From Sphingomonadales bacterium (GTDB lineage: Bacteria > Bacteroidota > Bacteroidia > Chitinophagales > Chitinophagaceae), in assembly GCA_016872155.1 (NCBI GenBank), contig VHBB01000004.1, positions 1 through 64,000 of the forward strand: a DNA stretch of 64,000 nucleotides. The letters are read 5' to 3'. The notes under the pieces are model-generated. The model searched no databases and had not been told where the DNA came from. It saw only the letters and a list, made by a program, of their open reading frames with translations. Shown one piece after another: positions 42,935 through 46,347 of the stretch (its first letter is position 1; each line of letters starts with the position of its first letter). A program made the translations under genes and the position numbers.

Positions 42935-44524
42935 TCAAAGAAATAACCGAACCGGATTTTCAAGAAATCTTTTTACCGTTTGCAAGAAAGCAGCCCCTGT
43001 GGCCCCGTCTACACTGCGGTGATCGCAGCTTAGCGTGAGTTTCATTACCTGCGTGGCGGCAAACCCTTCTCCTTTGCGAACGATCTTTTCGCTAATGCGA
43101 CCCACGGCCATAATGCAACTGTCGGGAGGATTAATGATGGCTGTAAATTCGTCGATGTCCATCATTCCCAAATTAGAGATCGTAAACGTATTGCCGGTAA
43201 ACTCGTTGGGTTGAAGTTTTTTATTCTTGGCCTTAGAGGCGAGTTCTTTGGTCTCGGCTGCGATCTGTGGTAGCGTTTTATGATCGGCAAATCGAATGAC
43301 CGGTACGATAAGACCATCTTCGATGGCCACGGCTACGCCAATATGAACGTGTTGGTAGCGCCTGATCTTGTCGCCCATCCAAGAGGCATTGACAGCGGGA
43401 TGTTCGCGTAGGGCCAGTGAGACCGCTTTTACGATCATATCGTTAAAACTGACCTTAACCGGGCTAAATTCGTTAAGCTGTGTTCTGGCAGAGATGGCAT
43501 TGTCCATGTTCACTTCCATCTTAAGATAGAAATGAGGCGCACTGAATTTACTTTCGGCCAGTCGCTTGGCAATGACCCCACGCATTTGTGAATTGGGAAT
43601 ATCTGTAAAGGCTTCGGTGGCCTGTCCGGTAAAGGCAGGTAACGCAACTGGCTTCATCGTTGGGGCCGGAGTCGAGCTGGCACCCGGTTCAAATCGATCG
43701 ATATCCGATTTAATGATGCGTCCGCCGTCTCCGCTTCCTTTTAGCATGCGAAGGTCAACCCCTTTTTCTTGCGCAATTTTTTTGGCCAGTGGCGAGGCTA
43801 TAACACGACCTGTAGAAATCGTGTCAGGGCTTTGGGTCACGGGCTGCGCAACGGCCGTGGCTGTTTGCGAAGGAGTCGTAACCACTGCAGCAGCAGGGGT
43901 AGAGGGTGCTGCCGCAAGAATGGCATCTATATCTACCTTTCCTTTTTCTCCAATAATGCACAGTAATCCATTAACGGGAATCTTTTCTCCTTGCTGGGCG
44001 CCAATGTAGAGCAGGGTTCCGTTCTTGTAACTTTCAAGCTCCATGGTGGCCTTATCGGTTTCGATATCGGCCAGTACATCTCCTTTTTTTACGCGATCAC
44101 CGACCTGTTTGTTCCAACTGGCAATAACGCCCGCTTCCATGGTGTCGCTTAAACGCGGCATCAATACCACCTCTTCGACCTTAGACAGATCGAGCGATTG
44201 CGATTGATGGGCAGCAGGGGTTGGCGTTGATTCCGCAATGGGAGCAGCGGGTTTAGGATTGGTGAGTAAAGAAGAAATATCTTCTCCGGCTTTTCCTATA
44301 ATGGCCAGCAGGTCGTTGACCTGTAATTTAGAACCTTTGTCTGCACCTATGTGTAACAAGACGCCATCCTTATAACTCTCGAGTTCCATGGTGGCCTTAT
44401 CGGTCTCGACCTCTGCCAGCAAGTCTCCTTTTTTTACCGTGTCGCCTACCTTTTTGTGCCAGGCGGCGATCACACCCTCCGTCATGGTATCACTCAATCG
44501 GGGCATTAAAATCACATCTGCCAT
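42935..44524 (-). CDS. pdhC: Pyruvate dehydrogenase complex dihydrolipoamide acetyltransferase (E2)
   Basis: The 529-residue E2 core transfers acetyl from lipoamide to CoA. ATG 44524 (MADVILMPRLSDTM) is chosen over a longer start 19 codons upstream. It has two tandem lipoyl domains (about 1-80 and 115-200), each with ETDKATMELES, where the Lys is lipoylated; a peripheral-subunit-binding domain (VIASPLAKKIAQEKGVDLRML) near 255; and the catalytic domain with DHRSVDGATG near 500. Pro/Ala-rich linkers join them. No E1 or E3 gene is adjacent, as the E1 genes are elsewhere. Confidence 0.95.
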   Translation of the reverse strand: MADVILMPRLSDTMTEGVIAAWHKKVGDTVKKGDLLAEVETDKATMELESYKDGVLLHIGADKGSKLQVNDLLAIIGKAGEDISSLLTNPKPAAPIAESTPTPAAHQSQSLDLSKVEEVVLMPRLSDTMEAGVIASWNKQVGDRVKKGDVLADIETDKATMELESYKNGTLLYIGAQQGEKIPVNGLLCIIGEKGKVDIDAILAAAPSTPAAAVVTTPSQTATAVAQPVTQSPDTISTGRVIASPLAKKIAQEKGVDLRMLKGSGDGGRIIKSDIDRFEPGASSTPAPTMKPVALPAFTGQATEAFTDIPNSQMRGVIAKRLAESKFSAPHFYLKMEVNMDNAISARTQLNEFSPVKVSFNDMIVKAVSLALREHPAVNASWMGDKIRRYQHVHIGVAVAIEDGLIVPVIRFADHKTLPQIAAETKELASKAKNKKLQPNEFTGNTFTISNLGMMDIDEFTAIINPPDSCIMAVGRISEKIVRKGEGFAATQVMKLTLSCDHRSVDGATGAAFLQTVKRFLENPVRLFL

Positions 44525-44577
44525 TCGCCGTTCAATTTTAAGGCTCGAAATTAAGGAAAATGCGCTATTGGACCCTT

Positions 44578-46347
44578 TCAATAGTCCAGCTCAAGGCGAA
44601 GTCGATCTTTGAGCTCTTGTACCAGCGGATATTGTTTAACCAACTCTTGAAATTGTTCTTTGCTGCTCAGCATTCCTTCGGCAGTGGGCTGATGCCCGGC
44701 GGGCTCCTCTACCAGCACGGTAAATTTGAGGCCGATCACTTGCAGCTGTTGCTGTAAGAATTGAAAAAGGGTGTTGCGTTCTTGCTCAATGAATTTTTGC
44801 TCGATGTTATTGGTGGTTACGACTTCGAAGCTGCTGCCATCACTCACGCGTAGGCGGGCCGCCTCGAAGGGCTGTGCCGCGGGATTGCGCTCTAAGCGAA
44901 GTTGCTCGGTGTATTGAATCCAGGCGGCATTGAGCGAAGCCGATTCGAGCGTATGGCCGCTGCGTTGCCCGACCTCACTGCCTTGATGCTTGAACTGTTG
45001 CCGAATTTTATCTAGTGCACTTAAGCGGGGTGTCTCTATGACCAGTCGGGCCGAAGGCAGTTCCGAAGCGGGAGACTGAACGGGCTTTTGTTCAGGAACT
45101 GGCGTTGTAGCGACCGAAGCCTTTTGTTCGGATGCAGGTGTTGGGGTAACGGCCCCATTTGTATACAACCGAATGGGCGAGATTTTGAACGCCAGCGAGG
45201 CGTCAGCTATTTTTTTTTTAACCAGCCCGGGGCCGTCGGCAACGATCGTGAGCGCTTGTTGCAGATAGGCCAGTTTGATGAGGGCCATCTCTACATGCAG
45301 CCGTTTGTTACGGGCGCTACGGTAATTGATCTCGGCCTCACTGATTAGTTGAAGGGCACTTACCAGGTAAGCGGCCGTAACCGTAGTGGCGGTTTGACTG
45401 TATTGCTGCTTAAAATTCTCTACGGTATCGAGTAAAGCGATCGCTTGCGGGTCTTTGCATACCAAGAGATTTCTAAAAAATTCGGCCAGTCCGTTGAGTA
45501 CCGAATCGCCTTCGAATCCTTTGCTGTTGATTTCGTCGTACAAACGAATCATGCCACTCAGGTCTTGTTGCTGCATCATCGACAGCAGCCGAAAATAATA
45601 ATCGGCATCCAATATGTTCAGGTGCTCCAAGGTGGTGGCATACAGCAGATTTCCATTGGAGAAACTCACGATCTTATCGAACAGGCTTAGTGCATCGCGC
45701 AGACAGCCTTCGCTTTTTTGGGCAATCAGTTGCAAAGCGGCCCGCTCGGCTTTTACCTGCTCTTGCTGGGCTATCTTTTCGAGATGCGCTACGGTGTCTT
45801 CGGTAGTGATGCGTTTAAAGTCAAAGAGCTGACAACGACTTAGGATCGTGGGTAATATCTTGTGTTTTTCGGTGGTAGCCAAAATAAAGATCGCATAGGG
45901 CGGGGGCTCCTCGAGGGTCTTTAAAAAAGCATTGAAAGCCGATGCAGACAGCATGTGCACCTCGTCTATAACATACACTTTATAGCGTCCGGCCTGTGGG
46001 GCAAAGCGAACTTGCTCGGTAAGTTGTCTAATATCGTCCACCGAATTGTTCGAGGCGGCATCGAGCTCGAAATAATTCATCGATGCGCCCTCGTTAAAAG
46101 AGGTACAGCTGCTGCAGCTGTTACAAGCCTCGCCGGCAGCGGTGGGCTGCTCACAATTGATGGTCTTGGCAAGAATTCTGGCGCAGGTCGTCTTTCCTAC
46201 TCCGCGGGGTCCGCAAAATAGAAAGGCATGGGCCAGTTGTTGATTACGAATGGAATTTTTGAGCGTGGTGGTAATATGGTCTTGCCCCAGTACGCTATCG
46301 AACTGTTGTGGTCTGTACTTACGGGCCGAAACAATAAACCGCTCCAT
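44578..46347 (-). CDS. dnaX: DNA polymerase III subunit gamma/tau
   Basis: The 589-residue clamp-loader subunit has the ATPase domain with Walker A CGPRGVGKTTCAR near residue 45, a four-Cys zinc site (CEQP..CNSCSSC) near 65-80, DEVHMLS Walker B near 127, sensor I TTEKHKILP near 158, and domain III ending near 375. A long Pro/Ala-rich linker and a tau C-terminus for polymerase contact follow. An A10 run at codons 377-380 (minus strand 45219-45210), followed by a hairpin and by stops in both other frames, probably makes a short gamma form (see the recoding entry). The neighbour pdhC is unrelated. Confidence 0.97.
   Translation of the reverse strand: MERFIVSARKYRPQQFDSVLGQDHITTTLKNSIRNQQLAHAFLFCGPRGVGKTTCARILAKTINCEQPTAAGEACNSCSSCTSFNEGASMNYFELDAASNNSVDDIRQLTEQVRFAPQAGRYKVYVIDEVHMLSASAFNAFLKTLEEPPPYAIFILATTEKHKILPTILSRCQLFDFKRITTEDTVAHLEKIAQQEQVKAERAALQLIAQKSEGCLRDALSLFDKIVSFSNGNLLYATTLEHLNILDADYYFRLLSMMQQQDLSGMIRLYDEINSKGFEGDSVLNGLAEFFRNLLVCKDPQAIALLDTVENFKQQYSQTATTVTAAYLVSALQLISEAEINYRSARNKRLHVEMALIKLAYLQQALTIVADGPGLVKKKIADASLAFKISPIRLYTNGAVTPTPASEQKASVATTPVPEQKPVQSPASELPSARLVIETPRLSALDKIRQQFKHQGSEVGQRSGHTLESASLNAAWIQYTEQLRLERNPAAQPFEAARLRVSDGSSFEVVTTNNIEQKFIEQERNTLFQFLQQQLQVIGLKFTVLVEEPAGHQPTAEGMLSSKEQFQELVKQYPLVQELKDRLRLELDY
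45188..45219 (-). other. dnaX: Candidate programmed slippage/frameshift element in dnaX
   Basis: Reading the minus strand, an A10 run (45219-45210) in frame GTT AAA AAA AAA ATA is followed by TAGCT and a 6-bp hairpin (GACGCC/GGCGTT with one G-T pair, loop TCGCT, 45204-45188). Losing one A creates an immediate TAG; gaining one gives AAT AGC TGA. Either way translation stops at residue 379 or 381, just after the clamp-loader domains. Runs of this kind produce gamma in Thermus dnaX by transcriptional slippage, and E. coli uses a run plus hairpin for ribosomal frameshifting. Confidence 0.65.

Follow-up and report, generated by a model that had tools for sequence, protein, structure and literature searches.

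The run of ten A's (A10) that closes the clamp-loader portion of dnaX, in the 64,000-nucleotide stretch of DNA analysed here (the window), is likely to be a selected slippage site of the transcriptional, Thermus type that yields both the γ and the τ form of DnaX. RNA polymerase would slip on the run and release mRNAs whose A count departs from ten. Translation would give τ if the count is 10 or 10 ± 3n, and any other count would lead into a stop within a few codons and give γ, of 379–381 residues in the window, so that one dnaX gene would supply both clamp-loader forms. We infer from sequence that slippage takes place and that it is transcriptional, and the same holds for the ratio of γ to τ and for any use of γ. 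Slippage or frameshifting at an A-run of dnaX is already known, and the window gene belongs with the known examples; what goes beyond them is a genomic frame that has changed repeatedly and in both directions about a fixed run and, in a rumen lineage, an in-frame UAG followed by a conserved 3′ element.

The dnaX gene of the window and its A10 run

The product of the window gene scores 694.7 bits against the NCBIfam model NF011531 (cut-off 685), which places it in the DnaX γ/τ family, and contains the Pfam domains DNA_pol3_delta2, DNAX_ATPase_lid and DNA_pol3_gamma3, the match to the last of these stopping at residue 364 (Table 1). The coding strand at the site reads GGG CTG GTT AAA AAA AAA ATA and continues as GCT GAC GCC TCG CTG GCG TTC; the sequence 3′ of the run is TAGCTGACGCC. 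Removal of one A produces GTT AAA AAA AAA TAG, an immediate stop, and addition of one produces AAA AAT AGC TGA, a stop two codons on. An earlier note on this DNA had read both stops from the letters, placing the run after codon 376 of 589, and the sequence bears it out, as it does the presence of a 6-bp GACGCC/GGCGTT hairpin 5 nt past the run. The window gene thus has the features of the Thermus type, namely nine or more consecutive A's at the γ/τ junction and near stops in both other frames.

The draft genome that contains the window is 1.79 Mb long and 98% complete, and the closest named-record matches are uncultured Bacteroidota and Chitinophagaceae. It has two A10 runs and none longer, the one in dnaX being the only one inside a long open reading frame (ORF). 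A long A-run is by itself unremarkable in this genome: of its ~42 runs of at least nine A's, 28 were examined, 26 of them A9, and 12 of these A9 runs sit inside mechanically called sense ORFs of at least 150 codons. It is as judged by conservation that the A10 run and double stops of the window dnaX exceed chance. The ORF adjoining dnaX (42935–44581, minus strand) resembles, by eye, a dihydrolipoamide acyltransferase with two lipoyl domains.

Table 1. Features of the dnaX locus in the window, and location of the in-frame UAG in the rumen genus g566
Feature	Position	Strand	Basis
dnaX, DNA polymerase III subunit γ/τ, 589 aa, τ in frame	44578..46347	-	NCBIfam and Pfam matches
Part common to γ and τ, codons 1–376, AAA+ core and domain III	45220..46347	-	Pfam
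A10 slippery run (putative), codons 377–379 and first base of 380	45210..45219	-	Sequence; conserved in genus
TAG, +1 frame; one A lost, predicted γ of 379 aa	45207..45209	-	Sequence
TGA, -1 frame; one A added, predicted γ of 381 aa	45203..45205	-	Sequence
τ-specific tail, ~210 codons	44581..45209	-	Homologous tails in relatives, in frame or shifted
6-bp hairpin GACGCC-TCGCT-GGCGTT	45188..45204	-	Present here, not conserved, probably incidental
In-frame UAG, g566 genes L261, L256, L469, L482–L498, L502, L504–L510	dnaX codon 363–389		

The run and its flanking stops in related genomes

Within the genus, 40 of 42 genomes have a readable dnaX site (one lacks a dnaX match and one is cut). The run is at the same place in 39 of the 40, as A9 in 15, A10 in 18 and A11 in 6, and L036 is the sole member in which it is broken (AAAAAGAAA). 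Where the window gene encodes lysine with AAA, the 38 genus relatives with a run use AAA for 109 of 109 lysines at the site versus 277 of 338 elsewhere, while 2,916 of 4,672 four-fold-type third bases differ between the window gene and these relatives. A stop lies within three codons of the run in the -1 frame in 38 of the 39 members with a run and in the +1 frame in 35 of 39, directly after the run in 20. Thus, the run and the double stops expected by the earlier note are kept while synonymous sites vary, the hairpin is not kept in the four closest relatives, and the AAG-broken runs that it had named as evidence against slippage were seen in L036 alone, one of 40.

For a broader view, we assembled 362 non-redundant dnaX genes with a readable site, ranging from genus to phylum; the set is non-random, consisting of best matches and chosen regions. 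The genus contributed 40 of its 42 genomes, the family 84 of 138 matches besides the window, six of them chosen for a short open frame, the order 52 of 54 matches outside the family, and the class 87 of 112 matches outside the family together with further class members. From outside the class came 36 of 109 matches. A further 80 named loci were added, many of them the same genes. Where genes were identical over 600 nt, one was kept, and seven loci were left out because the site could not be read. The loci of genera g580 and g581, 25 genes of g566, and L441 were analysed outside the 362.

At least nine A's occur at the junction in 312 of the 362 genes. The length distribution there has a step at nine (A7, 7 genes; A8, 2; A9, 106; A10, 178; A11, 26; A12, 2). 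Runs elsewhere in 314 of these genes number 179 for A7, 42 for A8, 8 for A9, 2 for A10 and 4 for A11, and three of the four A11 are probably displaced junction runs (L240, L241 and L246). The junction run begins at codon phase 0, 1 or 2 in 109, 115 and 88 genes, respectively, and encodes KKK, EKKN, VKKK and so on; because all three phases occur, the encoded amino acids vary and lysine itself is not conserved. Among 271 genes with a run, AAA makes up 706 of 747 lysine codons at the site versus 4,563 of 6,350 elsewhere. Selection for poly-lysine is rejected by this AAA bias, by the differing residues and by the use of all three phases, and what these sequences indicate is that selection is on the nucleotide run and not on the lysines.

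In 248 of the genes τ is in the genomic frame, a frame open for at least 90 codons being taken as τ (L235 is so classed although it closes after 96 codons). A -1 stop occurs within three codons of the run in 234 of the 248, compared with 27% at background, and a +1 stop within three codons in 128 (background 19–21%). Stops in both other frames within nine codons are found in 220 of 248, far above the 22–25% at random places in 223 such genes, from which all these backgrounds are taken. These double stops count against chance, as the earlier note had argued for the window. Cultured relatives with A9 and τ in frame include Segetibacter koreensis (L229), Niastella yeongjuensis (L227) and Terrimonas pollutisoli (L211).

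Fifty of the 362 genes lack nine A's near the junction (for example L316, L317, L248, L259, L266, L331, L402, L423 and L435). Most of them have τ in frame, and these lineages may have lost γ or make it otherwise. Meanwhile, L364, from a 0.5-Mb genome (G268), has a DnaX of γ length only, 353 residues, in which the τ HMM finds no tail.

Genes with γ in the genomic frame and the nature of the probable frame change

In 64 sampled genes the genomic frame closes a few codons from the run, and τ lies in the -1 frame (54 genes) or the +1 frame (10 genes). To annotators, many intact dnaX genes of this group would appear truncated or frameshifted. In every one of the 46 genes tested, out of the final 64, the tail that matches the τ HMM is in the frame left open across the run; these are 38 genes with τ in -1 and 8 with τ in +1. 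A tail that is unreachable without a frame change should decay, so its retention implies that the frame change occurs. Taken together, the run in 39 of 40 genus members and in 312 of 362 sampled genes, the double stops far above background and the tails in 46 of 46 strongly support the proposal of the earlier note, in which a selected slippery run would give γ beside τ.

On a quick tree (FastTree, about the first 340 residues of DnaX), the genes with γ in frame form 38 separate groups, 13 with at least two species and 25 with a single species; L159, L168 and L283 make up a +1 clade of three species. One of the ten +1 genes, L096, is doubtful, as its stop codon shares bases with the first part of the run. 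L410 (A9, γ in frame) and L440 (A10, τ in frame) have a near-identical context and both come from one-contig genomes. Natural pairs of this kind, one A apart, are material for a direct measurement of polymerase slippage. One-contig genomes with γ in frame include those of L398, L399, L405, L410 and L411, and those with τ in frame include L440, L391 and L396. Sequencing error was rejected as the sole source of the γ-in-frame genes; it is insufficient alone because 13 groups hold at least two species and one-contig genomes show both forms. The 25 single-species groups may include some homopolymer errors of draft genomes, and since the sample is non-random, the share of γ-in-frame genes gives no estimate of frequency. 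In genus g580 (family f117), 13 of 14 loci have γ in frame with A9–A11, the remaining locus (L522) being cut, and the τ HMM places the tail of these 13 in the -1 frame in 11, finds none in L512 and finds it elsewhere in L524.

Four observations fit slippage by RNA polymerase, as in Thermus: run lengths that step up at nine A's, no dependence on codon phase or on the base that follows, downstream folding no stronger than background, and genes in which τ lies in +1. The -1 direction is favoured over +1, both in the tighter -1 stops and in the 54:10 split of the γ-in-frame genes. Plain two-way slippage need not give such a bias whereas -1 ribosomal slippage would, which counts against the transcriptional reading; the bias could be explained if slippage chiefly inserted a single A, or if a share of the shifting were ribosomal and -1.

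Ribosomal -1 frameshifting on A_AAA_AAA within the run, either wholly or mixed with transcriptional slippage, is unlikely but has several points in its favour. In every run of nine A's or longer there is an A_AAA_AAA in phase, stops lie closer in the -1 frame than in the +1 frame (234 versus 128 of 248 within three codons), and 54 of the 64 γ-in-frame genes require a -1 shift. Moreover, the only lysine tRNA found in the window genome has anticodon TTT, with none for CTT among 30 tRNA matches; the list also misses the tRNAs for Asn and Ile, and the absence of CTT is accordingly weak. However, seven A's suffice for such a shift, yet A7 and A8 are rare and A9 and A10 usual. There is no preference for A_AAA_AAG, the base following the run in the 312 genes being C in 119, T in 103 and G in 90, and the ten genes that need a +1 shift (L096 with its doubt) are beyond the reach of -1 shifting.

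Downstream structure likewise speaks against the ribosome as the site of slippage. In a comparison of the 50 nt downstream of the run with one random N-terminal window per gene, folding was at background across the 312 genes (mean z -0.32 versus -0.27, and z below -2 in 29 genes each). The stem of the window is not kept in its four closest relatives (L005–L008), but at its position and spacing L008 forms another stem, of 4 bp, a point for the ribosomal reading. A 100-nt fold of the window, which includes a second stem further down, has a z of -2.25, with 4 of 200 shuffles as good; nothing like it was seen across the 312-gene sample. The hairpin as a frameshift stimulator, which the earlier note had put forward, is therefore rejected, since the stem is not kept in the four closest relatives and downstream folding is that of background.

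Just upstream of the run, purine-rich Shine-Dalgarno-like 4-mers are enriched weakly, in agreement with a ribosomal component, occurring in 71 of the 312 genes (22.8% versus 9.0%, and 16.9% in composition-matched shuffles). This signal may be either a true signal or the composition of the linker. GGAG, GAGG and AGGA are absent at -18 to -4 of the window run, which tells against ribosomal shifting there. Across the 312 genes, the region from -18 to -1 shows a sharp local peak both in these 4-mers and in G content.

A contingency tract at the DNA level, in which run length would vary between cells or generations and switch between τ and γ as in phase variation, is highly improbable. Close relatives that differ by one A, such as L410 and L440, are what it would produce. 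However, a clamp-loader gene, taken to be essential, is an unlikely on/off switch, and entire clades keep the γ-in-frame form (the 13 groups with at least two species, as well as g580 with its 13 of 14 loci and its -1 tails). Least credible of all is chance or constraint on the protein, that is, a linker rich in lysine in genomes where AAA is the preferred codon: AAA is already the commoner lysine codon and synonymous codons picked from within each gene still give at least nine A's in ~110 of 271 genes, but all 271 have the run (they were preselected for it from 314), and the three phases, the differing residues, the stops in both frames and the conserved out-of-frame tails stand against it.

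Known dnaX systems and junctions without an A-run

The dnaX gene of Thermus thermophilus undergoes transcriptional slippage on an A-run (Larsen et al. 2000, as described in PMC1088944 and PMC5009743). As far as these accounts describe it, the two genes share the A-run, a genomic frame that encodes τ, stops in each of the other two frames and a short product without the τ tail. They differ in that Thermus has A9 and the window A10, in phylum, and in the position of the run, at about two thirds of the gene's length in the window and seven eighths in Thermus; slippage in the window is predicted from sequence. Slippage in Thermus has been linked to its having two lysine tRNAs (PMC5009743). E. coli has a lysine tRNA with TTT and none with CTT, as does the window genome in its incomplete tRNA list. 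With the E. coli -1 ribosomal frameshift, as outlined in PMC5009743 and PMC3711429, the window shares the gene, the products and a -1 stop right after the site. Unlike E. coli dnaX, it has no A_AAA_AAG, as a T follows the run (A_AAA_AAA is present), and no upstream Shine-Dalgarno-like 4-mer, and its hairpin is not conserved.

The GeneTack survey reported 17 two-ORF dnaX genes in 12 genera, nine with A10 and all of the -1 kind, and proposed slippage (PMC3711429). The paper names three Chlorobi species in its text and the data set included 20 Bacteroidetes species, so some of the nine A10 species may be Bacteroidota. The two-ORF genes described there share with ours a poly-A run, mostly A10, at the γ/τ junction, and their arrangement, with the genomic frame ending at the run and τ in -1, is that of the 54 relatives; the window differs, having τ in frame. 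The +1 arrangement of the ten relatives is not described in the dnaX section of that paper. Among the titles listed by a literature search in which subscription journals were thinly covered, none dealt with readthrough of a dnaX stop or with slippage at dnaX in Bacteroidota at large, and likewise none with the breadth in the phylum, the +1 arrangement or the many two-way changes of genomic frame.

One lineage has a different junction. In an uncultured rumen genus of Bacteroidales (g566, family f117), the A-run is absent and an in-frame TAG is found in all 27 unique genes read, two named records (L256 and L261) included. The TAG is followed by AT[AT] GCA AG[AGT] (the AUWGCAAG element); all 27 genes use GCA, one of four codons that would serve. 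The τ tail is in the same frame, open directly past the TAG, and matches the τ HMM in 27 of 27. Just past the element a short stem can be drawn in each gene, which differs between species yet remains paired (CGC/GCG, GCC/GGC, GTC/GAC, and GTCC/GGGC with one G-U). The case for this hairpin rests on a per-sequence stem search, with a mean score of 10.7 (shuffles, 3.5) when the register is picked for each sequence separately; RNAalifold gave no consensus structure for a 90-nt alignment of the 27 genes around the UAG, and Rfam returned two matches for four UAG-element loci, both far below the gathering scores. The next in-frame stop is TGA in 13 genes, TAA in 8 and TAG in 6, and because six genes use TAG there, it is probably also an ordinary stop in g566. 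The arrangement looks like a candidate for programmed UAG readthrough that would make τ in place of the A-run. In genus g581 of the same family (L499–L501 and L503), τ is in frame and the UAG element is absent.

Together, these observations incline us towards a wider view, in which dnaX of Bacteroidota and their allies is indifferent to the genomic frame. Slippage on a fixed A9–A12 run would fill all three frames; the run, the stops in every non-τ frame and the τ tail would be kept, and the genomic frame, being near-neutral, would have drifted repeatedly and in both directions. In one rumen lineage of Bacteroidales the run would have been lost and the UAG with its conserved 3′ element put in its stead. 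The role of γ has long been disputed in E. coli (PMC5009743). A slippage site in most sampled genes, with the frame flipping round it, would mean that these bacteria are under selection for both forms, and the UAG device of g566 supports that view.

Two related Bacteroidales genes without an A-run, L245 and L265, have yet another arrangement, with γ ending at about codon 380 and the τ tail in +1. Both carry GTCAGGCAATC shortly before the stop (codons ~375–381), possibly a +1 frameshift site, in these two sequences only.
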